Assembly: GCA_018819305.1 (NCBI GenBank)
Contig: JAHJQO010000054.1
Location: 1 to 42,602, forward strand
Direction of reading: 5' to 3'
DNA: 42,602 nucleotides
Source: Nanobdellota archaeon
GTDB lineage: Archaea > Nanobdellota > Nanobdellia > Woesearchaeales > SM23-78
The first letter of the stretch is position 1; each line of letters starts with the position of its first letter. The notes under the pieces are model-generated. The model was not told where the DNA came from. It worked only from the letters and a program-made list of their open reading frames with translations, and ran no database searches. The translations under genes and the position numbers were made by a program. Positions 25,431 to 42,602 of the stretch are shown one piece after another.

Positions 25431-25452
25431 TTTTTACCTCTTGATAATATTG

Positions 25453-25474
25453 TCTTATCAGTAAGAATATCTTA
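25453..25474. promoter_or_regulatory. Candidate AbrB operator: TCTTA-tcag-TAAGA-ata-TCTTA
   Basis: Overlapping palindromes upstream of the orphan AbrB; the same half-sites occur upstream of the second AbrB gene. Confidence 0.45.
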
Positions 25475-25503
25475 TGTATGAATATTTTGGTTATAGGGAC
25501 TGC

Positions 25504-25902
25504 TTAAAGAATCAGGATGGCTTCCTCAGGCGTGATTATTTTGATTCCCTTATATTTGCCGAGTTTTAACAAGTGCTTATCATAAGTAATAATATACTTT
25601 GATTCGCTTTCTAAAGCACATTCAATTACCTTATCATCATCCGGGTCATCTTTTATAACTTGAACCTTAATTTTTGGGGTTATTATTGTGGCAAATTGCA
25701 TTACTTTACTAAGGATGTTCTCAATCTCGCTTTGATTATATTGAAAATCTCTGTTTAGCACATTAGCAAACTCTTCAAGAATGTCTTTTGTAGTAAATAT
25801 CTCAAACTTATTTCTGATTAGTTTTTGCAGCAGCTTATGAGCCACACTGTAATTCCATTGAGTAGAGGAGATAAGAAAATTTGTATCTGCAGTGATATTC
25901 AT
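25504..25902 (-). CDS. PIN-domain toxin
   Basis: ADTNFLISS, EE acid residues, DDKVIECALES, YIITYDKHLL. Confidence 0.88.
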   Translation of the reverse strand: MNITADTNFLISSTQWNYSVAHKLLQKLIRNKFEIFTTKDILEEFANVLNRDFQYNQSEIENILSKVMQFATIITPKIKVQVIKDDPDDDKVIECALESESKYIITYDKHLLKLGKYKGIKIITPEEAILIL

Positions 25903-26183
25903 TTTGCTTTTCTTGACTTATGGATTAAGTCAGGGACATCACTTTCTTTAATCCCGAGCCTTTTTGCTCTTTTTGCCCCTTCTTTGCCAATTACTTCTAA
26001 TTCTCTTATCAGCTCTTCTTTTGAAGGAGTTGCTATTTTTTTCAAAACTACAGAATCCTTACTTCCAACAACAGCAAAAACAGTGCCTTCGTCTGCGCAT
26101 ATCTTCTCTCTGATGTCTTTGGGTATCACAACCTGTCCTTTTGATGACATTTTTATTGTTTCAACAATCATTTTAACCTCCAC
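25899..26183 (-). CDS. AbrB-type antitoxin paired with PIN toxin
   Basis: IKMSSKGQVVIPKDIREKI; 4-nt overlap with PIN gene. Confidence 0.9.
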   Translation of the reverse strand: MEVKMIVETIKMSSKGQVVIPKDIREKICADEGTVFAVVGSKDSVVLKKIATPSKEELIRELEVIGKEGAKRAKRLGIKESDVPDLIHKSRKAK

Positions 26184-26186
26184 TTG

Positions 26187-26215
26187 TCTTACTTTCTTAC
26201 AATAAGATAATCTTA
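26187..26215. promoter_or_regulatory. Candidate AbrB operator: TCTTAC, TCTTAC, TAAGAT-a-ATCTTA
   Basis: Perfect palindrome 26203-26215 plus two half-sites. Confidence 0.45.
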
Positions 26216-26290
26216 TATATAAATGTTTTGGTTATAGAATTACAAAAAAGCATATCTCTCCTTTTAGAATGAGGAGATGTGTTGATTTTT

Positions 26291-29200
26291 TTAATCTTCA
26301 GAGTTCCATACCAGCATGTGGAAGTTTGCAAAGCTTCCTCTGTATTTGACTTTGGCTACGAAGTCATATATGTTTTCTATTTGTGAAGTTACAGTTGCTT
26401 TTATGACTGGGTTTATTGTTTCCAGGCCGTCACAGCAAATAAATTCATGCATCATTCCTGTGGTTGTGTTTTCATATCTTACTACAAAGTCTTTGGGTCT
26501 GTTGTGGCATAATGTAGTGATGAAGTTGCATGTGCCTTCTTTGAAGGTTTGTCCTTCGCATGCTGGGTTGCAGTTTTTGTAGTAGTCTGTGCAGTCTGCG
26601 TGGCAGCTTCCATTTATCAGTGTGAAGTTTTGATAAGTTGTTCCGGCTGTTGATATTGTTACAGTTCTTATGTCGTCGTCATATCCTTCTCTTCTTGCTA
26701 CAAAGTTGTATGTTCCTATCAGAGCATTGTTGATTACATAGTTTCCATTGAAGTCTGATAGTGTTGATTGGCTTTCATAAGCTTCACCAAGTCCTGCTGG
26801 TCTTCCTGTTACAATAGCTCCATCAAGTCTGAATCCTTCTTCATTAAAAATTATTCCTGTGACTACTCCCTGGCATGAACCATCTGCTCTGTCAATATAC
26901 CCGTCGCAGTCATCATCTACGCCGTTGATGCATAAGTCAAATTGTTCTTCATCACCAGACTGGCATTCTCCATTTTGGTCAACGCAATCTGTTGGTTGGT
27001 CGCAGCATGCATAGAATGTTGAGGTGTATCTTGCAATATATGTTGATATAAAGTTTTCTGAAGGTGAATCATCTCCGCAGCATCTTTGATTCATGCTTGG
27101 AGGGCTCAGTTCCCAGTTGAAGGTCAGAGTTCCGCATGCAGCAGCAGGGTCATCAAAACCAAATGGAGTTAGGCATAAGTCACAACAGCCAGGGTCATCT
27201 TCATCTATATAAGTATCTCCATCATTATCAACTCCGTCTGCGCAGCATCTGTTGTTGGTTCCTTGTCCTTCCTGACATTCTGCATCACATCCGTCAGTTG
27301 CGCAGTCGCAGTCATTGTCAATATCATCTGTGCAACTGCTTTCTGGTGAGGGGTTGTAGTATTGGCATGTTGATGGGTCGCATCTTTGGGTTGTGCATCC
27401 TGCTTGGCAGGCAGAGCCTTCGCAAGCTTCTGGTCCATTCACTATTAGGTCTCCGCAGTAAGGTCCTATTTCTGTTTGAGTTACACAACTATTGTCGCAC
27501 CAGTTGCATGTTCCTGCGTATGGTGGTGTGCATGGTATTCCGTTTCCTGCTCCGTCGTCGCATTGTTCTGGTGGTGATTGTATAATATCATCTCCGCAAG
27601 AAGGACCTGTTACAGTTAGGAGTTGTGAACAATCAGCGCTACAGTATTGGCAGCTTCCTCCGTATGGTGGTATGCATGGCACTCCGTTTCCTGCTCCACT
27701 ATCGCAGACTTCAGGGCCATTAGTTATACTGTCTCCGCAGGTTCCTGTGGGAATGCAACTACCCCATAAGCATGTTGCTAAATTGCAATTTCTTATTCCT
27801 GGATATCCTCCTATTGTACAGGAAGGATTAGTTGAAGCATCACATTGTGCAGTGCAACTTCCTACACTGCAGGCAAATGAGCAAGTGCCAGTAGCAACAC
27901 ATCTACCTGTTCCGCCACTGTATTGTCTGCTGCTGCATTCAGGGCACCAGTCACATGCAGTATCAGCTTCACAAGTTCCTGAGCCTGAGGGTGTGTATTG
28001 TGAGCAGCAACTAGAGCCGCCTACTGTAATTGTTGTGGTTTTGTCAGTGCCTGATTTGTAAGATTTAGAAGTGTCAATACTGCACTTTACAGTGTGGCTT
28101 CCGGTTGTTGAAGGGGCAGGCCATTGAAATCTGGCTACACTACCGCTCCATCCAAGAAAACCACTCTCAATATTTGTTGAATCAATAAAAGCTTGAATAC
28201 TGTTGATATTAGCAACAGTTGAAGTGCAACTTACAGTAATGGTTTCGCCAGGGCAAGGAGTAGTGTCAGAAACAGCTACAGCCGTAACACCAACAGCGCA
28301 ATTGTTGTCACCGTGAATACCGTCACTACTGTCCCAATTGGTTTCGCTGTCACAGTCCTCGTCTCCTGTTCCTAAAGTGCACACTTCTGCTGAGCAGCAG
28401 TCACTAATACAAGTGTTGCCATTCTCTCCGCAGGCAGTGTTGCATTTTCCGTCTCCGCAGTAGCTCCATTTTTTTTCTCCTATTTGGCTTGGGTCGCAGC
28501 ATCTTCCGTCTCTCTTATCTCCTGCTATTAGGTTTTCTGTTGTCCAGTCCCATGTTCCTCTTGGTGCTGAGCATGAACGCCAGACATTGCTTGAGCATCT
28601 GAATCGAAGATCATTATTAATACTACATCCAGTATTAGCCACCACGATGCCTCCAATCTGAGTATTGTCTCCGCATCTCTGATTAGTGCTTAATGTTCCC
28701 AGGCAGTCCCATGTGCCGTCACCGCATACCTTACATGCATCAAGTTTGCAGGTGCTGCTGCATCCATCTCCACTAATTGTGTTGCCATCATCACATTGTT
28801 CGCCGCATGCCGTATTTTTTCTTCCGTCTCCGCAATAGCTCCAAGTATATGTTCCTCCTTGGCTTGGGTCGCAGCATCTTCCATCTCTCTTATCTCCTGC
28901 TATTAGGTTTTCTGTTGTCCAGTCCCATGTTCCTCTTGGTGCTGAGCATGAACGCCAGACATTGCTTGAGCATCTGAATCGAAGATCATTATTAATACTG
29001 CATCCAGTATTAGCCACCACGATGCCTCCAATCTGAGTATTGTCTCCGCATCTCTCATTAAGAAAATCTTCTCCAGTACAATCCCATGTCGTATCACCGC
29101 ATAACTGACATCCTTTTTCTGTTACTTCGCAATGTGCACTGCCTGCACTGCCAACACACTCAAAGCCAATACCATCATCTCTACAATCTCTATACTCTGC

Positions 29201-29626
29201 GTCACCGCACACAATGCTACCTCCAAGACTAAGAGGAAATACTTCTCTTATTGTGTATTGGTCTACACATCTTGGATATCCTACAGGAGTAGCACTCTTA
29301 AATTCACATTCACAGGTCTGGTAAATATCATGACATATCTGACAAGGAGGGTTTGGAGGATTGGATTGCGCACACATTTTTACATTATTACCATTAGTAC
29401 ATGAACAGCTACCGTCAGGGCTAAATCCTGTTCCGCAATCACATCCACAGGCAATGCTTGGTGGATTTCCAGTGCAAACACATCCTGATATACATGCAGG
29501 AGTGCAGTCACTGGGAGTGCATGATGCTCCAAGAACTATTTGCAATGTTAATATTGCAATCAATAAGACAATCATTGTTTTGACTGTTATTAACAAAATA
29601 TTATTCTGAGAATTCCTTTTTTCCAT
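26291..29626 (-). CDS. Very large Cys-rich secreted surface protein (DUF4215-like, MopE-like and carboxypeptidase-regulatory-like repeats)
   Basis: N-terminal signal IAILTLQIVLGASC; CGDGRKNTACGEQCDDGNTISGDGCSSTC; GVDDDCDGYIDRADGSC; GVVTGIIFNEEGFRLDGAIVTG...NGNYVINNALIGTYNFVARREGY. Confidence 0.88.
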   Translation of the reverse strand: MEKRNSQNNILLITVKTMIVLLIAILTLQIVLGASCTPSDCTPACISGCVCTGNPPSIACGCDCGTGFSPDGSCSCTNGNNVKMCAQSNPPNPPCQICHDIYQTCECEFKSATPVGYPRCVDQYTIREVFPLSLGGSIVCGDAEYRDCRDDGIGFECVGSAGSAHCEVTEKGCQLCGDTTWDCTGEDFLNERCGDNTQIGGIVVANTGCSINNDLRFRCSSNVWRSCSAPRGTWDWTTENLIAGDKRDGRCCDPSQGGTYTWSYCGDGRKNTACGEQCDDGNTISGDGCSSTCKLDACKVCGDGTWDCLGTLSTNQRCGDNTQIGGIVVANTGCSINNDLRFRCSSNVWRSCSAPRGTWDWTTENLIAGDKRDGRCCDPSQIGEKKWSYCGDGKCNTACGENGNTCISDCCSAEVCTLGTGDEDCDSETNWDSSDGIHGDNNCAVGVTAVAVSDTTPCPGETITVSCTSTVANINSIQAFIDSTNIESGFLGWSGSVARFQWPAPSTTGSHTVKCSIDTSKSYKSGTDKTTTITVGGSSCCSQYTPSGSGTCEADTACDWCPECSSRQYSGGTGRCVATGTCSFACSVGSCTAQCDASTNPSCTIGGYPGIRNCNLATCLWGSCIPTGTCGDSITNGPEVCDSGAGNGVPCIPPYGGSCQYCSADCSQLLTVTGPSCGDDIIQSPPEQCDDGAGNGIPCTPPYAGTCNWCDNSCVTQTEIGPYCGDLIVNGPEACEGSACQAGCTTQRCDPSTCQYYNPSPESSCTDDIDNDCDCATDGCDAECQEGQGTNNRCCADGVDNDGDTYIDEDDPGCCDLCLTPFGFDDPAAACGTLTFNWELSPPSMNQRCCGDDSPSENFISTYIARYTSTFYACCDQPTDCVDQNGECQSGDEEQFDLCINGVDDDCDGYIDRADGSCQGVVTGIIFNEEGFRLDGAIVTGRPAGLGEAYESQSTLSDFNGNYVINNALIGTYNFVARREGYDDDIRTVTISTAGTTYQNFTLINGSCHADCTDYYKNCNPACEGQTFKEGTCNFITTLCHNRPKDFVVRYENTTTGMMHEFICCDGLETINPVIKATVTSQIENIYDFVAKVKYRGSFANFHMLVWNSED
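28484..28680 (-). repeat. 197-bp in-frame direct repeat, copy A
   Basis: Nearly identical to 28859-29055 (two differences seen by eye), offset 375 bp = 125 codons. Confidence 0.93.
28859..29055 (-). repeat. 197-bp in-frame direct repeat, copy B
   Basis: See copy A. Confidence 0.93.
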
Positions 29627-29755
29627 GTTTCACTCACCACCTACTCCTTTTTTATTAATTATTAATAAATATAATTCTATTAAAGGATAATATACTGTTA
29701 ATTCTTTTTAAATCTTTTGAAATTCATGTTAATTCAGGTGTTATCATGGTGTTTT

Positions 29756-30220
29756 CTAGAAATATTCTTCTAATCTTTCTTTATATTGTTTTTTTTGCTC
29801 TTCTGTCAGGTTTTCAATGAAATAGTTGAGTTGGTCTGTGAATTCTTTTGTTGTTTCTATTTGTTGCTCCACTTGTTCTTTTGATATTTTGAATTCTGTG
29901 TAGTATTGCTTGTCTATTCTTTCTTTTTTAGCGTCTTTTATTTCTTTGTTGTCTATTTCAAATATTTCTTTTAGCAATATTATTGTTCCTGTGTGGTTTT
30001 CGCATTTTATTCCTACTAAATATAATAATGCTGTTGCTTTGTTATACATTGAATAATAGGTCATGCTTGTTGCTTCTTCTAGTAAGTCTTGTGTTATTAG
30101 TATTTCTGCTGCTTTTAAGGAGTTTCTTGATTTTTGGTGATAGGATTCTGCTATTTCTTCACTTGGATCTATAAGAGTTATTTTTTCTTCTTTAATTAGT
30201 TTTGTTATAAATTTGTTCAT
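29756..30220 (-). CDS. HEPN domain protein (TA-2)
   Basis: EATSMTYYSMYNKATALLYLVGIK; 4-nt overlap with upstream MNT. Confidence 0.8.
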   Translation of the reverse strand: MNKFITKLIKEEKITLIDPSEEIAESYHQKSRNSLKAAEILITQDLLEEATSMTYYSMYNKATALLYLVGIKCENHTGTIILLKEIFEIDNKEIKDAKKERIDKQYYTEFKISKEQVEQQIETTKEFTDQLNYFIENLTEEQKKQYKERLEEYF

Positions 30221-30762
30221 TTTATTAGTTGATAGTATCTTTCTGTGTTTTGTATTATTACATGGTCTTTGATTATTTCTTTTGCTAAAAGGTTTTCTTT
30301 GTCAAATTTTCCTATTTTTATGCTTAGTTTTGAATCTATTTGTTCGAGTTCTTTTTTTAAGTTTTTGTTTTGTGTTTCTATGTATATGTCTATATCGCTT
30401 GTTTTTTTTGCTTTGTTTTTTGCGTGGCTTCCGAATAGTATTATTAATTCTCCTTTTGTTTTCTCTTTTAGTTCTTTTATTATTCTTCTTAGCTTTGGTT
30501 CTTGTATTATTTTGGTTAGTTTGTATTGTTCTGCCATTACCAGAGCTATTTCTGCTTCAGGGCTGTTTTTTAGGAAATATTTGTTGTTTTTTCCTTCTGT
30601 TTTGTAATCTACAATGTTTTCTTTTCTTAATTTTTTCAGTATTCTCATTGTTGTTGAGGGTATAAGGTTTAGTTTTTCTGCTATCTTTCTCAGGTGGCAT
30701 GGTTCTTTTCTCAGGACTTCAACAATCTCGAAATCGTTTCTTTTTTGCAACATGTGTTTCAT
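30217..30762 (-). CDS. wHTH-MNT nucleotidyltransferase (TA-2)
   Basis: LIILFGSHAKNKAKKTSDIDIYI; N-terminal wHTH LRKIAEKLNLIPSTTMRILKKLRKENIV. Confidence 0.9.
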   Translation of the reverse strand: MKHMLQKRNDFEIVEVLRKEPCHLRKIAEKLNLIPSTTMRILKKLRKENIVDYKTEGKNNKYFLKNSPEAEIALVMAEQYKLTKIIQEPKLRRIIKELKEKTKGELIILFGSHAKNKAKKTSDIDIYIETQNKNLKKELEQIDSKLSIKIGKFDKENLLAKEIIKDHVIIQNTERYYQLIK

Positions 30763-30771
30763 TTATGCAAC
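30756..30771. promoter_or_regulatory. Candidate operator of TA-2: GTTtCAT-tt-ATGcAAC
   Basis: Imperfect palindrome (one mismatch pair) overlapping the start codon, just downstream of TTTAAATA on the - strand. Confidence 0.4.
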
Positions 30772-30828
30772 GATATATTTAAATGTTTCGTTTTTGAGGT
30801 CAATACGGGTAAAAAAACAAAATTAATT

Positions 30829-32997
30829 TTAGAACTTGACAGATGCACTGTACAATATATTAACATCATACACTCTGCCATTTGCACCAACCAGGCCAAA
30901 GCTTAGTCTTCCAGGCCCGATTTTTTTAGAAACATTAATGTCAGCAAAATTAAACTGGTTTGAATCTATAAACATTGTTTTGTAATTTCCATTAATCATG
31001 ATTTGCTTAATCAATGGCAGGCTAAGATTTGCACCTATTCCAACACTTAATGATTCTGCATTTGACATGCCTTCAGATGAGGTATATGAACCTGTAACTC
31101 CAATGCTGCCTAAATTAGGAATCTGAAATCCAGTTGCAAGAGTAACTGCCTGGCTTTGATTATTTGGAGATGAGTTTCTGTTGTAGCCTGCTTGAATTCT
31201 TTGAATAAGATTATTGCTGTTTTTTGAAGCTGTTCCAATTGTAAAGCCCATGTTGTTTGCTCCTGTTCTTGCATCATACATTCCATTACCGCCTACAACA
31301 ACTCCTTTAAGATTTGCATCTCCTCTTGCTGAGAATATCTGATTATCAGGTGTAAGAATCATTCCTATCTGGCCATTGAAATTATTTAAAGCAAAATAAG
31401 CATTTGTCATGTTTTGAAGATGATTGTTTCTCATAGCCATGGTTGTGTTTACTCCTGCTTTTTTATTTCCAATGCCTGCTCTAAGTCCATTTCTGTCAAT
31501 GCCAACATTAACACCTTCGATGCTGGTGTTAATATCAACTGCATTAAGCATAGCCATTGCAGAAGCATTTGCATTTGTTGCTACAGAACCAATAGTCTGA
31601 GTATCTTTAACATAAATATAAGCTAATAATTCTTTGCCAGCAGTATTAAGATTGCCTGTTGTTTTATAATCAGTAATTGTATAATTTGTATTTCTACCTC
31701 CTAAATCATCTGTCTCTGTCATGAGCTCAAATATTTCAGCATTCCAAATTGCTTTAATAGTTGAATTAACATTTTGACAATTATTAGGGTCAACAACAGC
31801 AAAATAACCACCTGAACCAGAACCATGAATTCCTAGTTTATTATCTAGTTTATCATAATATACCAAAAAATCTCCACCAGAGTCAACTTTTTTTAAGCTA
31901 CCATAAGTCATCCAAGGATAAGACAAAGCAGAGTTTAACTGATTAACAACTTCAGTTATAAGATTTTCAGGGCCTGTTACTGTGTCATATCTTCTGGTAA
32001 AAGTTGCATTAGGACCAAATCTGAGTTTGCCAAAGCCAGCATCAATATGTTCATCAATCAAACCATAATTAGTACCATTGCTTGCGTTAAACAAAAACAA
32101 TGTGTATTGGAAATTCCAGGGATCTTTATGACTCCTGTTCACTGTAAAGATTACATCGCCGTCTCTGTCGAAATCAAGATATTTGCAGTCATTAAGAGGG
32201 CCTCTCACAGCAATTCTTTTATCATCAACATTAGTAAGCCCAAGAGCATTAACTATTTCATCAATAGAAATAGTCACCTGAGAGCTTGTCATAACATTAT
32301 TAATAGTATAATTTCCCAGGATTCCCTGAGTATGATTAATAACCTGAACATTAAGATTTGTATTGTAGTCAGTGTCTGGAGTAACAGGGTCGGGTTTTTT
32401 CTTTAACAAAACTGCTGCTGCAACTCCTCCTGCAAGAGCAAGCCCTCCGATTATCCATGGCAGAGCACTTTTCTTCTTTTTTTCCTTGCCTTCAGACTTT
32501 AATTTATCAAGAGTAATAAGTGCATTTGCTTGATTATAAAACTTATGAGCGATTGTGTCAAGTGTTTGAGAATCAAGAAGTGCTTGTTTGTTGTTAAGAT
32601 TGATTGCTTTTGTAAAATAATCAACAGCCATTTTCTGGCTTTCCTTGTCTTTTTCATGAGAAAATGTCTGAGCATGCTCAAAATAGTGTTTGTATAATTC
32701 TTCTTGCGTAGGTGTCTGAGCAGTAAGATTAATTTTTTTATCTGTGCTTGTTTCAGATACAACATCAGATATATCACTGGATATATCACTGCTTTGTGCC
32801 AGACTAAAGTGTTTTATTATTCTTGGATGAAAAATGTTTTTAGAATATTCTAGCTTTTTTTCAGCTCCAAAACCCATTCCTGCAGTAAGAATAAGTGCTG
32901 ATAATGTGGATGCAATTAGCTTATAACCTTTTCTGAACTTTGGTTCAGTTGGGTGGTTGTTTTTTAGTGCATCGCCAAGATAATCTGTTATTGTCAT
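30829..32997 (-). CDS. Surface/secreted protein, unknown function, with TPR-like region, internal TM and beta-rich C-terminus
   Basis: Signal-like LIASTLSALILTAGMGFGA; HYFEHAQ...AVDYFTKAINLNNKQALL; ALPWIIGGLALAGGVAAAVLLKKK; C-terminus ends SASVKF. Confidence 0.75.
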   Translation of the reverse strand: MTITDYLGDALKNNHPTEPKFRKGYKLIASTLSALILTAGMGFGAEKKLEYSKNIFHPRIIKHFSLAQSSDISSDISDVVSETSTDKKINLTAQTPTQEELYKHYFEHAQTFSHEKDKESQKMAVDYFTKAINLNNKQALLDSQTLDTIAHKFYNQANALITLDKLKSEGKEKKKKSALPWIIGGLALAGGVAAAVLLKKKPDPVTPDTDYNTNLNVQVINHTQGILGNYTINNVMTSSQVTISIDEIVNALGLTNVDDKRIAVRGPLNDCKYLDFDRDGDVIFTVNRSHKDPWNFQYTLFLFNASNGTNYGLIDEHIDAGFGKLRFGPNATFTRRYDTVTGPENLITEVVNQLNSALSYPWMTYGSLKKVDSGGDFLVYYDKLDNKLGIHGSGSGGYFAVVDPNNCQNVNSTIKAIWNAEIFELMTETDDLGGRNTNYTITDYKTTGNLNTAGKELLAYIYVKDTQTIGSVATNANASAMAMLNAVDINTSIEGVNVGIDRNGLRAGIGNKKAGVNTTMAMRNNHLQNMTNAYFALNNFNGQIGMILTPDNQIFSARGDANLKGVVVGGNGMYDARTGANNMGFTIGTASKNSNNLIQRIQAGYNRNSSPNNQSQAVTLATGFQIPNLGSIGVTGSYTSSEGMSNAESLSVGIGANLSLPLIKQIMINGNYKTMFIDSNQFNFADINVSKKIGPGRLSFGLVGANGRVYDVNILYSASVKF

Positions 32998-33017
32998 ATT
33001 GCAATTTTATTTGTTTT

Positions 33018-33095
33018 AATCATTTATAAACTTTTCGCTTTTTACACCACTGTGGAGTGGTTATTAAATGGAGATGAAACCGAAACATTTAAATA
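33018..33095 (+). repeat. Cassette-boundary element, copy b
   Basis: CATTTATAAACTTTTCGCTTTTTACA-CCACT-GTGG-AGTGG-TTATTAAATGGAG..CCGAAACATTTAAATAC; hairpin 33047-33060. Confidence 0.8.
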
Positions 33096-33102
33096 CTTTG
33101 TC

Positions 33103-33113
33103 TGGTAATACCA
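33103..33113. promoter_or_regulatory. Candidate operator of TA-3: TGGTA-a-TACCA
   Basis: Perfect palindrome between TATA and ATG; GTCTGGTAA also repeats directly 21 bp apart. Confidence 0.45.
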
Positions 33114-33118
33114 TACAT

Positions 33119-33733
33119 ATGTCTGGTAAAAACATACAAGAATTAAATTTCACAAAAACAGAAATAAAAATATTAAAACATATTTTTAAGCATTATAAAG
33201 ACAGATACAATGCCAGACAAATAGCAAAAGAACTATCACTAAACCACGCGCACATAAATGATTTGTGCAATGCTTTAGAAAAAAAGAACTTGCTAGTTAG
33301 AGAAGAGATTGGGAATTCAATTTATTATCAATTTGATTATGCAAATAAGTTAGCATTAAATTTTATTGAATATTTGCTTAGTCTTGAAATAAAAGAATTT
33401 CCCAAATACCTTAAAGTGCTGTTGCATAGTTTAAGTAAATTTAATGAACATATACAATTAGGATTAGTTTTTGGTTCTTCAATAAAAAGCAGCAAATACA
33501 ACGACATAGATGTTTTGCTGATTTACGATAAGAAAAAAAGCCAATCAATAAATAAAATAAAAGAAGATATCAGAAAATCTGAATTAGTTGAAAAACCAAT
33601 AAGATACGTTGAAATATCTGAAAAAGATTTAATAAAGAATAAAGATAATAAAATATTTTACAGTATAATATCGGAAAATTTAATTTTTCATAATTCATCA
33701 AAATACATTGAGGTGATTAAATGGTCCATATAG
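33119..33733 (+). CDS. wHTH-MNT nucleotidyltransferase (TA-3)
   Basis: LGLVFGSSIKSSKYNDIDVLLI. ORF track starts at 33068, upstream of the TATA box; MSGKNIQ (33119) preferred. Confidence 0.85.
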   Translation: MSGKNIQELNFTKTEIKILKHIFKHYKDRYNARQIAKELSLNHAHINDLCNALEKKNLLVREEIGNSIYYQFDYANKLALNFIEYLLSLEIKEFPKYLKVLLHSLSKFNEHIQLGLVFGSSIKSSKYNDIDVLLIYDKKKSQSINKIKEDIRKSELVEKPIRYVEISEKDLIKNKDNKIFYSIISENLIFHNSSKYIEVIKWSI

Positions 33734-34203
33734 ACCAACACTTAAAATGGTGCTTAAATGACGAAAATCGATTAAAAAAAGTTAGACCAAATATTTCATT
33801 AGCTTTAGCACATATAAAAAAATCTGAATACAACAAAGGAGTAATGGACATACTTGAAAAAGCAGAAAAATATGACTGGGCATTAAATGTAGGTTTTTAT
33901 TCAATATATCACTGCTTCCTAGCAATAATAGCCAAATATGGATACGAATCAAGAAATCAATCCTGCACAATAACTGCAATACTAAAATTAATTGAAGAAA
34001 AAAAGATGGATTTTGACAAAGATTTAGTAATGCAATTTGACACATTAGATGTTGATAAAGAAGCAACTAATCCAACAATAAGAGAAAACAGAGAAATATC
34101 AACCTACGGAGTAAAAACAGAAGTCAATACAGAACAATTTGACAAAGTTAAAGATTTAGTTATCAAAATACAAAGAGAAACAATAAGAATAATTAACGAA
34201 TAA
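33721..34203 (+). CDS. HEPN domain protein (TA-3)
   Basis: YDWALNVGFYSIYHCFLAIIAKYGYESRNQ; overlaps MNT gene by 13 nt. Confidence 0.8.
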   Translation: MVHIDQHLKWCLNDENRLKKVRPNISLALAHIKKSEYNKGVMDILEKAEKYDWALNVGFYSIYHCFLAIIAKYGYESRNQSCTITAILKLIEEKKMDFDKDLVMQFDTLDVDKEATNPTIRENREISTYGVKTEVNTEQFDKVKDLVIKIQRETIRIINE

Positions 34204-34223
34204 AAATTATTGATGATACTTCT

Positions 34224-34303
34224 TCATTTATAAACTTTTCACTTATACACCACTACAGAGTGGTTATGACTTGGAGATTCTACATTATTTTCAGAATTCT
34301 TTC
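34224..34303 (+). repeat. Cassette-boundary element, copy c
   Basis: CATTTATAAACTTTTCACTTATACA-CCACT-ACAG-AGTGG-TTATGACTTGGAGATTCTACATTATTTTCAGAATTCTT; hairpin 34250-34263. Confidence 0.8.
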
Positions 34304-34363
34304 AATTACCACTGGACATCCTGGCGTAGAGTTTATAAACATAAAAAAATTACTCATTTATAA

Positions 34364-35197
34364 ATGAAAGAAAAAAACAAACTTGTTGTTTTTCAAAACA
34401 AAAAAATCAGAAGAATATGGCATAACGATGAATGGTATTTCTCAATAGTGGATATTGTAGCTGTTTTAACAGAGAGTGTGGATCCAACAGCTTATTGGAG
34501 AAAACTGAAACAACGACTAAAGGAAGAGGGAAATGAAACCGTGACAAATTGTCACGCTTTGAAAATGCTTGCGTTTGATAACAAAATGAGACTTACAGAT
34601 GTAGGCAGGACTAAAGAAATATTTAGGCTAATTCAATCAATCCCTTCTAAAAGAGCAGAACCATTCAAACAATGGTTAGCACAGGTTGGTTATGAGAGAA
34701 TTGAGGAGATTGAGAATCCTGAGCTTGGTCAAGATAGAATTAAGGAATATTATGAGCTTAAAGGTTATCCAAAGGAATGGATTGACAAAAGGCTTCGTGG
34801 AATAGCAATAAGGCAGGAATTAACAGATGAGTGGAAAAACAGAGAGATTAAAACTGAAAAAGAATTCTCAATACTTACAAATGAAATAAGCAAAGCAACA
34901 TTCGGCAAGACGGTTGGTGAATACAAGGAATTCAAAAAACTACAAAAGCAAAATCAGAATCTTAGGGATCATATGAATGATTTAGAATTAATCTTTACAA
35001 TGCTTGGTGAAGCATCAACTACTGCAATAACCAAAGAAAAAGATTCAAAAGGTTTTGATAAATGTAAAAATTCGGCAAACAAAGGCGGGAACATAGCAAA
35101 AAGGGCAAGAGAAGATTTGGAAATAAATCTTGGAAAAAGCGTTATTTCAAAAGATAATTTTTTATCTAAGCAAAAAGACAAGAAAAAACTGAAATGA
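34364..35197 (+). CDS. BRO-N / DinD-like DNA-damage-inducible protein
   Basis: KKIRRIWHNDEWYFSIVDIVAVLT (BRO-N start) and RIKEYYELKGYPKEWIDKRLRGIAIRQELTDEWKNR...LGEASTTAITKEKDSKGF. Confidence 0.85.
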   Translation: MKEKNKLVVFQNKKIRRIWHNDEWYFSIVDIVAVLTESVDPTAYWRKLKQRLKEEGNETVTNCHALKMLAFDNKMRLTDVGRTKEIFRLIQSIPSKRAEPFKQWLAQVGYERIEEIENPELGQDRIKEYYELKGYPKEWIDKRLRGIAIRQELTDEWKNREIKTEKEFSILTNEISKATFGKTVGEYKEFKKLQKQNQNLRDHMNDLELIFTMLGEASTTAITKEKDSKGFDKCKNSANKGGNIAKRAREDLEINLGKSVISKDNFLSKQKDKKKLK

Positions 35198-35268
35198 ACT
35201 TCATAATCACAAAATTAACACTGCTATTTCTACTAAATTTTGTCTTTTGCAGTGTTATTTTTTCATTG

Positions 35269-35340
35269 TTTCATTTACAACTTCCGCTTCTTCACCCTGA
35301 TGAGTGGTTATGAATCAGAGTGAAATCCGAAATATTTAAT
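35269..35340 (+). repeat. Cassette-boundary element, copy d (degenerate hairpin)
   Basis: TTTCATTTACAACTTCCGCTTCTTCACCCTGATGAGTGGTTATGAATCAGAGTGAAATCCGAAATATTTAAT. Confidence 0.7.
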
Positions 35341-35345
35341 TGATT

Positions 35346-35375
35346 ACTATTAGTTAATATATGTAAACTAATAGT
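35346..35375. promoter_or_regulatory. Perfect inverted repeat ACTATTAGTT-N10-AACTAATAGT downstream of a TATA-like box
   Basis: 10-bp arms, 10-nt spacer, positioned like the MNT operators but with no MNT gene following. Confidence 0.6.
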
Positions 35376-35385
35376 TGACATAAAA

Positions 35386-35505
35386 ATGACTGCTGCAAGC
35401 GTTCTGGAAAAAAGATTTGTATTGAAGCTGTTTAAGGATTTGACAAAAGGCTTTGGTGCTAGGATAAATCAGAGGTTGGAAGAGAGGCTAAATGTGAGTG
35501 TGTGA
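35386..35505 (+). CDS. Small orphan ORF (39 aa), possibly a remnant
   Basis: MTAASVLEKRFVLKLFKDLTKGFGARINQRLEERLNVSV* after the element-d promoter. Confidence 0.4.
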   Translation: MTAASVLEKRFVLKLFKDLTKGFGARINQRLEERLNVSV

Positions 35506-35515
35506 GGAATAGGAA

Positions 35516-36034
35516 TTATTTATTTAATATGATTCTGATTCGTGATATGAATTTCCTTGCGTTTTCAAATATTTCTTTAACTCTTCTCTCAGTATAGACT
35601 TTTGTTGCGCTATACCTGCTTATTGAGCTTTCTTTTCTTGCATCTTCAAAATATTCAATGTAATCATCCTCAAATATCTTATGGGCTTGTTCTAGTAATT
35701 CTAAATCCTCTTTTTCTATTTCATTTGGAACTAATAAATGCCCTAATGCTATCTGGGTCGCATAATGGTCATCAGTCTCATAGCCTTTGGTTAGAATGGC
35801 TGCTTTCGCAATATAAAGCATGGAATAATAGCAAATGGTTATTGCCCAATAGTCTTTTGCGGTTTTATCTGAATCTTTAATAAGATTTGCTAATTCGAGG
35901 CTGTCGGTTCCTTTCCTGACAAATTTATTTATTTTGAATGTTGAACTGCTATTTTTTATATAAAATTTTTTCCCTTCTTTTTTCTTCAATAATTTCTCAA
36001 ATTCTTTCTCATAAAATTCTTTGTCAAATTCCAT
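35516..36034 (-). CDS. HEPN domain protein (TA-4)
   Basis: AKDYWAITICYYSMLYIAKAAILTKGYETDDHYAT; overlaps MNT gene by 11 nt. Confidence 0.82.
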   Translation of the reverse strand: MEFDKEFYEKEFEKLLKKKEGKKFYIKNSSSTFKINKFVRKGTDSLELANLIKDSDKTAKDYWAITICYYSMLYIAKAAILTKGYETDDHYATQIALGHLLVPNEIEKEDLELLEQAHKIFEDDYIEYFEDARKESSISRYSATKVYTERRVKEIFENARKFISRIRIILNK

Positions 36035-36602
36035 TTTTCCAGATCAGATTCCAAAAATATTCTTCGCCATATAAAATTATATGTTTTTTAATGATTTCTT
36101 TTGCCAGGTTTTGTTCTTCTTCCTTCAGCATTAGCTTAAATTCTTTGTGTTTTAGATATATTGGGTTTATCTCCAGTTTGAACAATAACTCAAATTTTGA
36201 GAAGTTAATGTTTTTCTTTCCATCTTTGTTGATGATACATAAATCAATATCGCTTTTTTCTCTTTGTTTTCCTTCTGCTCTTGAGCCGAATAATATTAGG
36301 GAATAATTTCCAGATGGAATCTCTTTTTTTAGTACTTGAAATTCAGGGTTTTTGTTAAGGTACTGCTCTGTTTCTTTTCTTTCTGCTAAAATAAGGTAAT
36401 TTTTAGTTATGTTATCTCTAAGATTCAATGAAACTAATTTAATATTCCCCTTTTGGTCAATGATAAATATTTCTTTATTGTTATTAATTAATCTGTGCGT
36501 TGTAGTATACGGCACTTTAGATTCTTTGGAAAGTTGCCTGATTGGAATTTGATTATTGAGGTTTTTTCCTAATGTTTGGATTAATTTTAGTAGATTATCC
36601 AT
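36024..36602 (-). CDS. wHTH-MNT nucleotidyltransferase (TA-4)
   Basis: YSLILFGSRAEGKQREKSDIDLCII. Confidence 0.9.
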   Translation of the reverse strand: MDNLLKLIQTLGKNLNNQIPIRQLSKESKVPYTTTHRLINNNKEIFIIDQKGNIKLVSLNLRDNITKNYLILAERKETEQYLNKNPEFQVLKKEIPSGNYSLILFGSRAEGKQREKSDIDLCIINKDGKKNINFSKFELLFKLEINPIYLKHKEFKLMLKEEEQNLAKEIIKKHIILYGEEYFWNLIWKNGI

Positions 36603-36605
36603 TTT

Positions 36606-36621
36606 TGGTTAATATTAACCA
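36606..36621. promoter_or_regulatory. Candidate operator of TA-4: TGGTTAATATTAACCA
   Basis: Perfect 16-bp palindrome between TATA box and ATG. Confidence 0.6.
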
Positions 36622-36761
36622 TATTTGGTATTTAAATCTTTCTGTTTTTGAGGCTAATGCAAACAGTAATTCAGCAAGTTATACTGATAATGAGATAAAT
36701 GGAAAACAGGATGAAAAGGGAGATGAATAAAGTTAAAAACAAAATATTTATATACTATTTA

Positions 36762-36777
36762 GTTAACACATGTTAAC
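36762..36777. promoter_or_regulatory. Candidate operator of TA-5: GTTAACA-ca-TGTTAAC
   Basis: Perfect 7-bp arms between TATA-like ATATTTATATAC and ATG. Confidence 0.6.
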
Positions 36778-36791
36778 ATAAAGGTGAACAC

Positions 36792-37388
36792 ATGTATGTT
36801 AATAAGTCTACAGCTAAAATATTGCAGTTTTTTGCAGGCCATATAACTGAATCATTTACTCTGAGAGAGGCAGCAAGAAGGCTAAAAATGCATGTATCTC
36901 TTGCCCATCGGGCAATACAGCCATTAATACGCTTCAAAATTATTGAGCAGGATAAGCATAAGAATCTTAAGTTAAATTACAAGACTTATCATGAAACCCT
37001 TGCTTTTGCAGAATATTTAAGAAGAGATAATTTTCTTGATAAATTCAAGGGCATTAAATTTTTTGCAGATGAAGTTATTAGCAAAATTAAGCAGGATTGC
37101 TTTGTCCTGCTTGTTTTCGGCTCAGCAGTAGAATCAGCAAGGCCAAGAGACATTGACATATTGCTAATTGTGGATGCCACTGATAAAATAGAATTCCATG
37201 AAAAATTCTTGCATAACATCACATTAAATTATGACTTGCCATTCGAGGAAAGAGTTATCGGATTTGAAAGCGTATATGAAATGCTCTCAAAAAGAGATGA
37301 AAAAAATGTTATGAATGAGATATTGAATAAACATATAATATTATATGGTGCAGAATTATTTTATAGGCTTCTTGGAAGGGGAAGATGA
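36792..37388 (+). CDS. wHTH-MNT nucleotidyltransferase (TA-5)
   Basis: FVLLVFGSAVESARPRDIDILLIV. Confidence 0.85.
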   Translation: MYVNKSTAKILQFFAGHITESFTLREAARRLKMHVSLAHRAIQPLIRFKIIEQDKHKNLKLNYKTYHETLAFAEYLRRDNFLDKFKGIKFFADEVISKIKQDCFVLLVFGSAVESARPRDIDILLIVDATDKIEFHEKFLHNITLNYDLPFEERVIGFESVYEMLSKRDEKNVMNEILNKHIILYGAELFYRLLGRGR

Positions 37389-37461
37389 TAAAAATATCTG
37401 CTGCCCAAAACTAGGAAATGTCTGGGCATCCTGGTGTTTTCTGAGGTGAAAATTTTGATAG

Positions 37462-38047
37462 ATGAAAAAAGCTAAAAGAAGCAGAAAACAGAGTTAAAAG
37501 ATTTATCAGCGAAGGCGTAATCAAGTCAAAAGGCAAGTCTGAACATATGGATTTTTTTCTCAAAAACGCTTATGATTCAATAGATTCTGCAAAAGCATTA
37601 TTTGAGTTATCAACTAACCCTCAAAAGCAGGAGTCTCTTGGTTTCACCAGCTTCAATGGCCTGCTTTGGGTTGTCAATGCCAGTTACTACAGCATGTTTT
37701 ACATGGCAAGGGCTCTTCTGGAAAACAGCGGTATTAAGATAAAAGCAGACCTGTCTATTCATGCAGTTACATTTGATGCTGTGATTTACTATTTTTACCT
37801 CACAGGCAAATTACAGAAAGAATTCTTAGAGGACTTTATTGAAGCAAAAGAGGATGCTGCTGAGCTTCTTGGAAAGCAAAAGGCAGATGAACTGATGGAA
37901 GAATATTTATTTGAAAAAAAGAAAAGAGGTATGTTCACATATGATATGGGAATGGTGCTTGTTCAATCAAAGGCAAAAACTTCTCTGGAAAGAGCACAAA
38001 AATTCAGAAGAGAAATAAGGAGGATTATTGATAAAAGCAGAAATTAA
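37462..38047 (+). CDS. HEPN domain protein (TA-5) with apparent +1 frameshift near its 5' end
   Basis: In-frame ORF 37547-38047 (MDFFLKNAYDSIDSAKALFEL...ASYYSMFYMARALLENSG). Removing one A from ATG-AAAAAA-GCT at 37462 restores MKKLKEAENRVKRFISEGVIKSKGKSEHMDFFLKNA. Confidence 0.75.
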
Positions 38048-38143
38048 GCTCGTTTATTAATGCATTAGTAAGAATGCGTTATTTTTAAATATTTCGTTAA
38101 TATGTTTACATCTTGTGAAATACTGTTAAAAAGAAAATTAATT

Positions 38144-38329
38144 TTAGAACTTGACAGATGCGCTATACATTATATTAACATCATATACTCTGCCATTCGC
38201 ACCAACAAGACCAAGACTTAGTCTTCCAGGCCCGATTTTTTTAGAAACATTAATGTCAGCAAAATTAAACTGGTTTGAATCTAGATTATTGTTTTTCAGT
38301 GCATCGCCAAGATAATCTGTTATTGCCAT
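38144..38329 (-). pseudogene. Internally deleted mini-copy of the 722-aa surface protein gene
   Basis: MAITDYLGDALKNN fused to DSNQFNFADINVSKKIGPGRLSLGLVGANGRVYDVNIMYSASVKF; matches the two ends of 30829-32997. Confidence 0.9.
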
Positions 38330-38350
38330 GATGTGATTTTACTAGTTTTA

Positions 38351-38430
38351 ATCATTTATAAACTTTTCACCTATATACCACTGCAGAGTGGTTATGATTA
38401 GGAGTAAAATCCGTAAGATTTAAATACTAC
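38351..38430 (+). repeat. Cassette-boundary element, copy e
   Basis: CATTTATAAACTTTTCACCTATATA-CCACT-GCAG-AGTGG-TTATGATTAGGAGTAAAATCCGTAAGATTTAAATAC; hairpin 38378-38391. Confidence 0.82.
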
Positions 38431-38443
38431 CTGAATAAAGGTA
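38428..38443. promoter_or_regulatory. Candidate operator of TA-6: TACCT-gaataa-AGGTA
   Basis: Perfect 5-bp arms, followed by a TATACC half-site. Confidence 0.45.
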
Positions 38444-38470
38444 TGTTTATACCATTAAAGAGGTAAGATA

Positions 38471-39103
38471 TTGTTAACGCCAAAACAAATTAAGATTTTT
38501 GAAGCATTTTTGAAACAGCCTTATGAAGAACTTACATACAGGGATATAAAGGATTATTCTAATGAGAAGTCAAATTCAATTATACAGAAAGCTATTTTAA
38601 AGTTCCTTGAAGATGATCTTGTGAGTAAAAAAGAAATTGGCAATATGTATCTTTATGGATTAAATTTAAAAAATAATTCTACGTTCTCATATTTTGATAT
38701 ATTAATTAATGAAAAACTGCCTTTGATTGTAAAAAAAACTCTAAAAATAATAAAAGAAGAGTTAGCAAACACAGATTTCTTTTCAATTGTCATTTTTGGC
38801 TCTTATGCTGAAGGAAAACAAAGTCAGAAATCTGATTTGGACGTCGCGTTTTTTGTTTCTTCTGAAAGAGAAAAAAGAGAATGTGAGCAATCATTAAAAT
38901 CTGCAGAATTAAAAAGCCTGTTGAATGTTGATTATCATGTTTTTACAAAAAATGAAATGCTTCAAATGCTTAAAGATAAACAAGAAAATCTTGGAAAACA
39001 AATAGTTCATAAACATCTTGCAGTTCATAATCCATTAATATTTTATTCAATTGTTCAGGAGGGTATAGATAATGGATTCAAAGTTGCATATCCAAAGAGC
39101 TGA
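38471..39103 (+). CDS. wHTH-MNT nucleotidyltransferase (TA-6)
   Basis: FSIVIFGSYAEGKQSQKSDLDVAFFV; TTG start after GAGGT. Confidence 0.9.
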   Translation: MLTPKQIKIFEAFLKQPYEELTYRDIKDYSNEKSNSIIQKAILKFLEDDLVSKKEIGNMYLYGLNLKNNSTFSYFDILINEKLPLIVKKTLKIIKEELANTDFFSIVIFGSYAEGKQSQKSDLDVAFFVSSEREKRECEQSLKSAELKSLLNVDYHVFTKNEMLQMLKDKQENLGKQIVHKHLAVHNPLIFYSIVQEGIDNGFKVAYPKS

Positions 39104-39539
39104 GAATGAGATTAAACTTGCAGAAATAATATTTGTTATGAGTGAGAAGTCTGAGCTGCAAACAGAATATTTTGATGTTAAAGATCCTGAAACTTATTAT
39201 AGCGCTGTAATTAGTCATTGTTATTATGCTATTTTTTATGCTGCCAAGGCATATTTAATCAAGAAAAAAATTAGAGTAAGTGCTCCTGAAGAGCATAAGA
39301 AAGCGTTTAATGAATTCAAGAAGTTTGTTGAATCAGGAGAGCTTGATGTTGAGTTGCTTAAGATTTATCAGGAAGCATTAATCAGGGCGGATCATCTTTT
39401 AGGCATATTTAAAGAAGAGAAGTCTAAGAGAGGAACTTTTACATATAGAAAAATGCCTCAGGCAAATAAAGACCCTGCGCGAGACAGTTTAGAGCATGCA
39501 AAAACTTTTTTTAAGCATATTAATGCAATAATCTGTTAA
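39072..39539 (+). CDS. HEPN domain protein (TA-6)
   Basis: ETYYSAVISHCYYAIFYAAKAYLIKKKIRVSAPEEHKKAF...GTFTYRKMPQANKDPARDSLEHAKTFF. Confidence 0.85.
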   Translation: MDSKLHIQRAENEIKLAEIIFVMSEKSELQTEYFDVKDPETYYSAVISHCYYAIFYAAKAYLIKKKIRVSAPEEHKKAFNEFKKFVESGELDVELLKIYQEALIRADHLLGIFKEEKSKRGTFTYRKMPQANKDPARDSLEHAKTFFKHINAIIC

Positions 39540-39655
39540 TAATTCTTATAGAAAGGATTTATCTAATAATCAATATTCTGGAGAAAAGGGTTTTGCTTGT
39601 TTGAATATTACTCATCTATCATTATACCTCAAACATATTAATTTATAATGTTTTT

Positions 39656-39735
39656 CGTATTATAAATTTTTCAATTCTAAACCATTGTGGAGTGGTTATG
39701 AATTGGAGTAAAATCCGAAATATTTAAATACTACC
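39656..39735 (+). repeat. Cassette-boundary element, copy f
   Basis: ATTATAAATTTTTCAATTCTAAA-CCATT-GTGG-AGTGG-TTATGAATTGGAGTAAAATCCGAAATATTTAAATAC; hairpin 39682-39695 (wobble-compatible). Confidence 0.82.
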
Positions 39736-39748
39736 TGTATTTAGGGTA
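39732..39748. promoter_or_regulatory. Candidate operator of TA-7: TACC-N9-GGTA
   Basis: Inverted repeat just downstream of TATA, similar to the TA-6 operator. Confidence 0.4.
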
Positions 39749-39771
39749 GATTATACCTTAAAAGAGGGACA

Positions 39772-40398
39772 ATGATAACTACAAAGCAATTAAAAATATT
39801 CAGTATATTTTCCAAGAATGTATTTAAAGAGCACTCTTACAGGGAATTAAAAGAGCTGTCTGGAGTGAAATCTAATTCTGTGCTTCAGAATGCAATAAAA
39901 AAGTTTCTCAAAGAGGAATTAATCTCCGAAAGAAAAATTGGTACATCAAAACTTTACAAAATTAATTATGATAATGATAAAGTTTATACCTATTTTGATA
40001 TCAGTATAAAAGAAAACCTAAATAAATTAGTTAAAAAATCAATTTCAATCATTAAACAGGAATTGGATAAATATAGCTTTTTTTATTCTCTTGTTATTTT
40101 TGGATCCTATGCAAATAGCACATTCAGAGAAAAGTCAGATTTGGATATAGCAATATTTATTCCAGATAAGAATCAAGAAAAGAACTTTAAAGTTGCAGTT
40201 AATTCTGCAGAGAATAAGTCTTTAATTGGTTTGGATGTTCATATAATAACTGCTGAAGATTTTTTAGAAATGTTAAGTGTTGATTACGAGAATTTAGGTA
40301 AGGAAATTATAAGAAATAATCTTCCTGTGTACAACAGTGCAGTATTTTATAAATTAGCCATTAAGGGGGTAAAACATGAATCCAAAATTATATCTTGA
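39772..40398 (+). CDS. wHTH-MNT nucleotidyltransferase (TA-7), paralogue of TA-6 MNT
   Basis: SLVIFGSYANSTFREKSDLDIAIFI; colinear similarity to 38471-39103. Confidence 0.9.
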   Translation: MITTKQLKIFSIFSKNVFKEHSYRELKELSGVKSNSVLQNAIKKFLKEELISERKIGTSKLYKINYDNDKVYTYFDISIKENLNKLVKKSISIIKQELDKYSFFYSLVIFGSYANSTFREKSDLDIAIFIPDKNQEKNFKVAVNSAENKSLIGLDVHIITAEDFLEMLSVDYENLGKEIIRNNLPVYNSAVFYKLAIKGVKHESKIIS

Positions 40399-40692
40399 AC
40401 ATATCTTCTGGCAAAAGGAATAAAAACAGAACCTCCGGAAGAGCATAAGAAAACTTTTGAAGAATTCAAGAACTTAGTAGAACAAGGAATTATTGATGTG
40501 GAATTACTAAGAATATATGAAAAAATCCTTATTAAAGCTGATACCCTTCTCCATATATTTAAACATGAAAAAGGAAAAAGAGGAAAATTTACTTATAGAG
40601 AATTACCTCAAGCAAATAAAGAGCCGGCAAAAGAAAGTCTGGATAATGCAAAAATATTTTTTAAGCACATTTATACTCTTTGCAATAAATAA
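40376..40692 (+). pseudogene. Degraded HEPN partner of TA-7 (internal deletion plus frameshift)
   Basis: Starts MNPKLYLEHI, then another frame resumes LAKGIKTEPPEEHKKTFEEFKNLVEQGIIDVELLRIYEKILIKADTLLHIFKHEKGKRGKFTYRELPQANKEPAKESL; the YYSAVISHCYYAIFYAAKAY helix of TA-6 is missing. Confidence 0.85.
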
Positions 40693-40740
40693 GGTCGAAT
40701 ATTTGGGCTGCTGAAGCAGGTCATACTATGTTATTTCTAT

Positions 40741-40830
40741 CTGTTATACATATTTCAATTTCTATACTGCCAGAAGTGATTATGAATCAGAGATTCTACA
40801 GTATTTTCAGAATTCTTATGGAAAAATTTA
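40741..40830 (+). repeat. Cassette-boundary element, copy g (degenerate)
   Basis: TTATACATATTTCAATTTCTATACTGCCAGAAGTGATTATGAATCAGAGATTCTACAGTATTTTCAGAATTCTT; downstream half matches copy c. Confidence 0.65.
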
Positions 40831-40838
40831 TAAACAAG

Positions 40839-40856
40839 TGTCACTTTATGTGAACA
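40839..40856. promoter_or_regulatory. Candidate operator of TA-8: TGTCAC-tttat-GTGaACA
   Basis: Inverted repeat with one bulge after TTTATAAA. Confidence 0.4.
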
Positions 40857-40868
40857 ATTGTCACAAAG

Positions 40869-41387
40869 ATGTTACATACTAATAAATTAAAAATACTTGA
40901 ACTTTTTTTTGAAGAGCCTAACAGAAACTTTCACTTAAGGCAGATAAGCAGATTAACAAAAATAGCAGTCACTTCAGTAAGAAAATATCTTGATGAACTA
41001 TTACATGAAAATTTAATAACAACAGACACAAAAACAATATATCCAACATATGTTGCAAACGAGACAAATAAAATATTCCGAGTTTACAAGCAGCAAAGGA
41101 TAATCCTAAAAATCCATGTTTCAGGATTAATAGATTATTTGGAAGAAACAACTCTTCCTAAATGCATAATCCTTTTTGGCAGCATGAGCAAAGGAGAATA
41201 TACTAAGACCAGCGATATAGATATATTAATACAAGCACCCAATCAGGAATTAAACCTTGAGAAATTTGAAAAAAAACTCAATCATAAAATAAACATATTG
41301 TTTGAACCAAAACTAAACAACCTGAATCAAGGTTTACTTAATAACATACTCAACGGATATGTTTTGTCTGGCCAGATAAAGCTTTAA
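40869..41387 (+). CDS. wHTH-MNT nucleotidyltransferase (TA-8)
   Basis: KCIILFGSMSKGEYTKTSDIDILI; N-terminal wHTH FHLRQISRLTKIAVTSVRKYLDELL. Confidence 0.88.
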   Translation: MLHTNKLKILELFFEEPNRNFHLRQISRLTKIAVTSVRKYLDELLHENLITTDTKTIYPTYVANETNKIFRVYKQQRIILKIHVSGLIDYLEETTLPKCIILFGSMSKGEYTKTSDIDILIQAPNQELNLEKFEKKLNHKINILFEPKLNNLNQGLLNNILNGYVLSGQIKL

Positions 41388-41398
41388 TCATCTACAAA

Positions 41399-41830
41399 TT
41401 ACTCCATGATTATTTTTCTTAAAGTTTTAATTATGTGCTGAAATTCAATTTTATTCATTTCAAAGTACTCTGGCTTGACAAAGAAGCCTCTGTAAGATAT
41501 TTCGTTTCGAATATTTTTTAATTGATAAATTATGTCGGATTCGTAATCAAATTCAGGATATTTATGTTTAAAGAATGCTATCAAACATTCATGATTGCCT
41601 GATTTAAATCCTTCGGTATAAAGTAGAGCTGTCAACATTTCTTTTATGACTTCATAATAACCATCAACAACCAAGGATACATATTTCTTATCATAATGAT
41701 GTTTTTTCCAGAATTCATACCTAAGATCTGCCATCTTAATAAGTTCATTGGCCCTGTTTTTATCCTTTTGAATTCTTTTAATATGGTGGGTTAAGCAGTT
41801 TTCCCATGACATCAATTCTTTTTTATTCAT
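41399..41830 (-). CDS. HEPN-like protein, convergent to TA-8 MNT
   Basis: YVSLVVDGYYEVIKEMLTALLYTEGFKSGNHECLIAFF...LKNIRNEISYRGFFV. Confidence 0.75.
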   Translation of the reverse strand: MNKKELMSWENCLTHHIKRIQKDKNRANELIKMADLRYEFWKKHHYDKKYVSLVVDGYYEVIKEMLTALLYTEGFKSGNHECLIAFFKHKYPEFDYESDIIYQLKNIRNEISYRGFFVKPEYFEMNKIEFQHIIKTLRKIIME

Positions 41831-41944
41831 ATTTTCGTAGTCTGATTAATTGTTTATATATTGCTATGATAAAATTTCGGATATTTTTTTTAAAAAACGA
41901 ATTTTTTTCGAGACTTATTTTACAAAACCCAAAACTTTAAATAT

Positions 41945-41964
41945 TACTTAGTATATACTAAGTA
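41945..41964. promoter_or_regulatory. Candidate RHH operator: TACTTAGTATATACTAAGTA
   Basis: Perfect 20-bp palindrome between TATA (TTTAAATA) and the RHH start codon. Confidence 0.7.
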
Positions 41965-41969
41965 TTACC

Positions 41970-42242
41970 ATGGAAAACATAAGCCTTAAGATGGATAAAA
42001 ACCTGCTCAACAATATAGACAAAACTCTAAAGAACCATAACTACAGCACAAGAACAGAATTCATAAGAGATTCTATCAGGAGCAAACTAACTCAACTGGA
42101 AAAAGAAGAAGCAATAAGGAAACTAGAAGCATTTAGAGGTAGCTTAAAAGGAAAAGCAAAGATGAGCTATGAAAAAGCAAGAAAAGAAGCTGTTAAAGAA
42201 TTATTCTTAAGTAAAGGTTGGGATTTGAAAGATTTAGATTAA
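41970..42242 (+). CDS. Ribbon-helix-helix (CopG-like) antitoxin/repressor
   Basis: ISLKMDKNLLNNIDKTLKNHNYSTRTEFIRDSIRSKL. Confidence 0.88.
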   Translation: MENISLKMDKNLLNNIDKTLKNHNYSTRTEFIRDSIRSKLTQLEKEEAIRKLEAFRGSLKGKAKMSYEKARKEAVKELFLSKGWDLKDLD

Positions 42243-42446
42243 TTCTTCCGGCTTTCTCACATTTCCATTAATTTCTAAAAAATGAGCATCTCTTGTAACT
42301 AAAATTGCACTAACTTCATTTGCCATAATTATATGTAAAGCATCATTCATAGGAATATTAAATTTATTCTTTAATTCTATTGCTTTTCTCTTGTGCTGTT
42401 CAGAAACATTAGTTTCAATTATTAGATTTTTAGGAATAAATTTCAT
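42234..42446 (-). pseudogene. 5'-truncated PIN-domain gene, convergent with RHH gene
   Basis: C-terminal PIN half: IPMNDALHIIMANEVSAILVTRDAHFLEI; frame closed upstream by a stop, first catalytic half absent. Confidence 0.75.
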
Positions 42447-42473
42447 TAAATCTATCAGTTTCTCATTGTCTTA

Positions 42474-42514
42474 GGCAAGGATACTCACAGACTTTAGTCT
42501 GTAGAGGAATTGCC
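42474..42514. mobile_element. Possible IS200/IS605-type subterminal palindrome (insertion end)
   Basis: GGCAA...ACAGAC-TTTA-GTCTGT...TTGCC; a GACTTTAGTC-type stem-loop is typical of many IS200/IS605 ends; sits where the PIN ORF is truncated. Confidence 0.45.
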
Positions 42515-42602
42515 TTGCTTTCTCCGTAAGTTTTTTCTATTCTTTTGATTATAAAATATGCGCGCGACGAAAATCGGCGCACGCATACACAATTTTGCCT
42601 AG

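Follow-up and report, generated by a model that had tools for sequence, protein, structure and literature searches.

The window analyzed here is a single 42,602-base contig from a draft archaeal genome (1.53 Mb in 57 contigs, 81.7% complete), whose ribosomal-protein genes and TATA/BRE-type promoters point to an archaeon. On its reverse strand lies a 61-aa mini-ORF with the translation MAITDYLGDALKNNNLDSNQFNFADINVSKKIGPGRLSLGLVGANGRVYDVNIMYSASVKF, and further left on the same strand a 722-aa ORF (Table 1). Residues 1-14 of the mini-ORF correspond to residues 1-14 of the 722-aa ORF with one change, and its C-terminal 46 residues to residues 677-722 with two changes past the first aligned residue; protein and DNA matches agree on this composition, which the initial annotation had given as the first 14 and final 45-46 residues. 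The C-terminal match had 93% identity (E = 2e-21) in a genome-wide search that found matches at these two loci only, while a search of the masked window gave E = 2.1e-21 for the C-terminal piece and E = 0.002 for the N-terminal piece; the N-terminal 53 residues used as a query returned no further convincing copy. Judged by these alignments, the similarity far exceeds chance. The product lacks parental residues ~15-676, including both predicted hydrophobic helices; the loss of the hydrophobic N-terminal segment, described earlier as a signal peptide, is thereby supported. As the initial annotation also had it, the 5′ flank runs into promoter element e just as the flank of the parent runs into element b. 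The 3′ flank, which had been called near-identical, matches exactly for ~13 nt and fades by ~25 nt; about half of the string quoted in its favor is coding (the last five codons and the stop).

Table 1. Features of the mini-gene locus, its full-length paralog and their surroundings (positions in the window)
Feature	Position	Strand	Remarks
Mini-ORF, 61 aa	38144-38329	-	Parental codons 1-14, filler and final 46 codons
Full-length paralog, 722 aa, orphan family	30829-32997	-	
C-terminal/3′ homology block	38128-38295	-	92% identical to 30813-30981 (169 bp); includes the 67-bp identical tract beside the junction
N-terminal/5′ homology block	38289-38428	-	82% identical to 32957-33097 (141 bp); first codons and promoter element e
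Element e	38345-38430		Leftward TATA (TTTATAAA), palindrome ACCACTGCAGAGTGGTTAT, rightward TATA (TTTAAATA)
Element b, 5′ of the full-length gene	33013-33097		
Element c, copy of the leftward promoter lacking any leftward gene	34224-34276		82% identical to e over the left 45 nt
Element f, upstream of MNT_E	39660-39734		Right side 90% identical to the right side of e
MNT_D/HEPN_D pair beside the mini-gene	38471-39539	+	
MNT_E, with HEPN_E truncated at its N terminus by ~59 residues	39772-40692	+	Tandem paralog of D
MNT_F (+)/HEPN_F (-) pair	40869-41830		68-71% identical sister-species ortholog is divergent to a homolog of the 722-aa gene

Protein and profile searches of 359 genomes of the order with the 722-aa protein returned a 788-aa homolog in one genome (G049), a 305-aa fragment in a sister species of the same genus (G002), and marginal matches, and a profile search of 377 genomes across the phylum added no further homolog. 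The G049 protein aligns from its N-terminal LGDAL motif with 31% identity over parental residues 3-497 and has a near whole-length profile match, while the G002 fragment corresponds to the middle region only and contains a TAG in the frame of the match. Protein and profile searches of the order (359 genomes) and a profile search of the phylum (377 genomes) did not find the 61-aa form elsewhere, a check that the initial annotation had suggested. Because a 788-aa homolog exists in G049, the full-length form is, on these comparisons, ancestral and the mini-gene a deletion derivative of it. Scans of genome-contig and viral-contig collections with the 722-aa protein found no relatives, phage records none, Pfam no family above its cut-off, and a PDB sequence search and NCBIfam nothing meaningful. 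The AlphaFold2 model had a mean pLDDT of 34 and gives a weak hint that the C-terminal half may be strand-rich. A putative role as a surface protein is plausible for this protein, which is without a family, a solved relative or a confident model.

Relative to its parent, the mini-gene has a net loss of 1983 bp, or 661 codons, with the frame kept. In the sense of the gene, the junction reads GCACTGAAAAACAATAATCTAGATTCAAACC in the mini-gene, against GCACTAAAAAACAACCACCC on the N side and TACAAAACAATGTTTATAGATTCAAACC on the C side of the parent. Deletion through microhomology at AAAACAA had been proposed, and the motif is indeed at both parental sites, but its codon phase differs between them (1 at the N-side site, 0 at the C-side site), so a direct join would be out of frame and needs an extra 1-bp loss or filler. 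At the junction of the mini-gene, AATC replaces GTTTA and is one base shorter. From this sequence, the joining event may have been end-joining with filler, a simple join followed by a later indel, or a join in a lost copy whose sequence differed. A draft assembly of 57 contigs, 81.7% complete, might also bring two repeats together by mistake; such an artefact is highly improbable because the junction offers just 7-8 bp of common sequence, too short for assembly error. The copies differ at many sites on either side of it, and the 67-bp exact match, which could swap flanks, could not make the N-terminal join.

Upon comparison of the common codons, a dN/dS check raised with the initial annotation, we counted 9 synonymous and 3 non-synonymous differences between the two sequences compared (omega ~0.11; P = 4e-4 against a neutral expectation of 25% synonymous). 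The excess of synonymous differences therefore suggests that the copies diverged mostly under constraint. Constraint acting before the deletion is the simpler reading, although two sequences cannot separate it from constraint that may also have acted afterwards. A selected short protein, such as a 61-aa cytosolic binding partner of the full-length protein, would account for this pattern as well, and also for an open frame of 61 codons that retains its start codon, TATA box and stop, and for a fusion that stays in frame even though the simplest microhomology join would break the frame and an additional indel was required. These intact signals leave room for a translated, selected product. We nevertheless consider such a product unlikely: the 61-aa form is in no other genome searched, divergence that preceded the deletion would give this substitution pattern just as well, and the C-terminal piece comprises only the last few strands predicted by a low-confidence model, with the hydrophobic segment gone. 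The open frame is itself less telling because ORFs of this size are frequent by chance (the 42.6-kb window has 154 that reach 50 aa or more) and the frame is kept 1 time in 3.

The differences between the copies are unevenly spread. The identical tract beside the junction spans 67 bp, while the following ~85 nt hold ~10 differences (permutation P = 0.014), a distribution that hints weakly at gene conversion. This tract is what would be expected if the mini-gene served as a silent donor for conversion with the full-length gene, as in antigenic variation, but it could be due to chance or local constraint. With a single truncated copy of just 46 C-terminal and 14 N-terminal codons, and no variant array or expression site, a donor role is very unlikely.

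The sequence upstream of the mini-gene belongs to a recurring set of elements (b to g), each with a leftward TATA box and a palindrome, (A)CCACT-N4-AGTGGTTAT, that is imperfect in d and g; elements b, e, and f also have a rightward TATA box. In the window, the form CACT-N4-AGTGGTTAT(N)A is found at 33048-33066, 34251-34269, 38379-38397 and 39683-39701. Across the order, the pattern CAYTNNNNAGTGGTTATNA was present in 46 of 351 genomes, with ~57 sites compared with ~6 for the reversed control. Within ~40 nt on one or both sides of the palindrome, a TATA-like sequence was found at all 30 sites examined (L033-L062), against a background of 5% per side, and the spacing was narrow, with offsets mostly of 11-13 nt to the right and 16-20 nt to the left. 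Genes downstream, inspected by eye, were varied and mostly unrelated to toxin-antitoxin (TA) systems. The element had been described as a cassette or boundary element; with a palindrome that is linked to TATA boxes order-wide and lies upstream of unrelated genes, it is better taken for a promoter region with a probable transcription-factor site, and the palindrome a candidate for such a site across the order. Rfam gave no match over 30000-42602.

Since six palindrome-bearing elements stand between gene pairs, all oriented alike, we considered a mobile unit, MITE-like or integron-like, ending in them. This is exceedingly improbable given the promoter-adjacent distribution just described, the weak AT-rich inverted matches in place of clear terminal inverted repeats around the mini-gene, and the lack of a transposase match in the 722-aa parent. 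An integron-like cassette array was likewise rejected, the palindrome not being confined to cassette junctions and being TATA-linked across the order. The recurring element could still provide homology for rearrangements. Its halves look mosaic, in that e is similar to b and c on its left but to f on its right, and c is similar to g on its right. It is conceivable, but rather unlikely, that copies of the bidirectional promoter with its palindrome seed recombination that reshuffles HEPN/MNT pairs and the 722-aa-type gene, with truncated copies as by-products or donors. Elements c and g (34259-34301 and 40775-40817) have another right half in common (GAGATTCTACANTATTTTCAGAATTCTT, 88%), and the genes downstream of these halves, a 277-aa BRO/DinD-like ORF and MNT_F, are unrelated.

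The TA neighborhood is dense: approximately eight MNT/HEPN pairs, belonging to several subfamilies, occupy 18 kb (23956-41830), with D and E the only close paralogs. MNT_A/HEPN_A adjoins the full-length gene and MNT_D/HEPN_D the mini-gene, an arrangement that the initial annotation had read as one duplicated block of gene, element and TA cassette. However, the A and D pairs are not close relatives: MNT_A (33068-33733) matches MNT_D (38471-39103) with E = 0.16 only. By comparison, MNT_D and MNT_E are tandem paralogs with 43% identity, and the retained portion of HEPN_E is 64% identical to HEPN_D; by their sequences, D and E arose, along with elements e and f, in a tandem duplication of their own. 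HEPN_E (40399-40671) starts right after the stop of MNT_E; the toxin is truncated, and the antitoxin gene next to it is apparently intact. The 3′ homology of the two copies of the 722-aa gene stops just beyond the stop codon, and the genes that follow differ. Because the TA pairs are not close paralogs and the 3′ homology ends past the stop, the duplicated unit was the gene with its own promoter region and terminator.

In the three genomes where the 722-aa family is clear (30829-32997 here, L031 1609-3975 and L029 3680-4597), its gene always neighbors an MNT/HEPN pair, and in two of them that pair is of the F type. The G002 homolog is divergent to a pair 68-71% identical to MNT_F/HEPN_F with AGTGGTTAT in between, and the G049 homolog follows a pair whose best match among the tested window proteins is the F type. 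A plausible history would have placed the gene first beside F, with D and E inserted or expanded between; the mini-gene would then be the F-side remnant and the intact copy the one further left. A cysteine-rich neighbor in common with the sister species was set aside as proof of synteny (E = 0.002 only). The 1111-aa cysteine-rich ORF of the window contains a ~312-bp repeat (28425-28736 and 28800-29111) with 88% identity.

Overall, the mini-gene is probably a non-functional truncated remnant of a diverged duplicate, an ordinary deletion relic. Both ends match one paralog in the same order and on the same strand, the full-length form is ancestral, and the genomes searched in the order and phylum do not share the truncated form. 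The 9 synonymous and 3 non-synonymous differences fit a relic because most divergence is expected before the deletion, and decay is found nearby in HEPN_E (minus ~59 residues), in element c without its gene, and in the G002 fragment with its TAG. On the other side stand the intact signals and in-frame fusion described above. We infer that a duplication within the HEPN/MNT-rich region copied the 722-aa gene together with its promoter and terminator, and that the copies then diverged for a time as constrained full-length genes. An illegitimate deletion resembling end-joining, with a few filler bases, would next have removed ~2 kb from the middle of one copy. What it left is an in-frame fusion of 14 N-terminal to 46 C-terminal codons, still flanked by the promoter and the terminator.

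The truncated HEPN_E and the geneless leftward promoter in element c suggest that this stretch loses sequence by repeated deletion, and the mini-gene most likely represents a gene copy in ordinary decay, within an unstable region filled with TA genes. The locus is thus a clean example of how duplication adds genes to a TA-rich stretch of a small archaeal genome and deletion takes them away, and a caution that short conserved ORFs in such stretches are not to be taken for genes. The promoter palindrome is a better lead than the mini-gene, and as a candidate order-wide regulatory site it merits its own study.

HEPN/MNT (HepT/MntA) toxin-antitoxin modules have been described as mobile and abundant in archaea (PMC2701414, PMC7641770). 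The pairs neighboring the mini-gene likewise carry nucleotidyltransferase and HEPN domains, but the mini-gene and its 722-aa parent lie outside any TA module, and what recurs in three genomes is the proximity of the 722-aa family to TA pairs. Silent donor copies are known from antigenic variation, such as the msp2 pseudogenes of Anaplasma (PMC2789410); the mini-gene is similarly a truncated copy near an intact putative surface gene with a tract of exact identity, yet it is one copy, without a variant repertoire or signs of recurrent conversion. Compared with truncated paralogs and internal-deletion pseudogenes in prokaryotes, the mini-gene differs in its in-frame fusion and apparently intact promoter, with loss of function presumed, while in common with them it is not conserved elsewhere, its middle is gone, and both ends of the full-length neighbor are kept.
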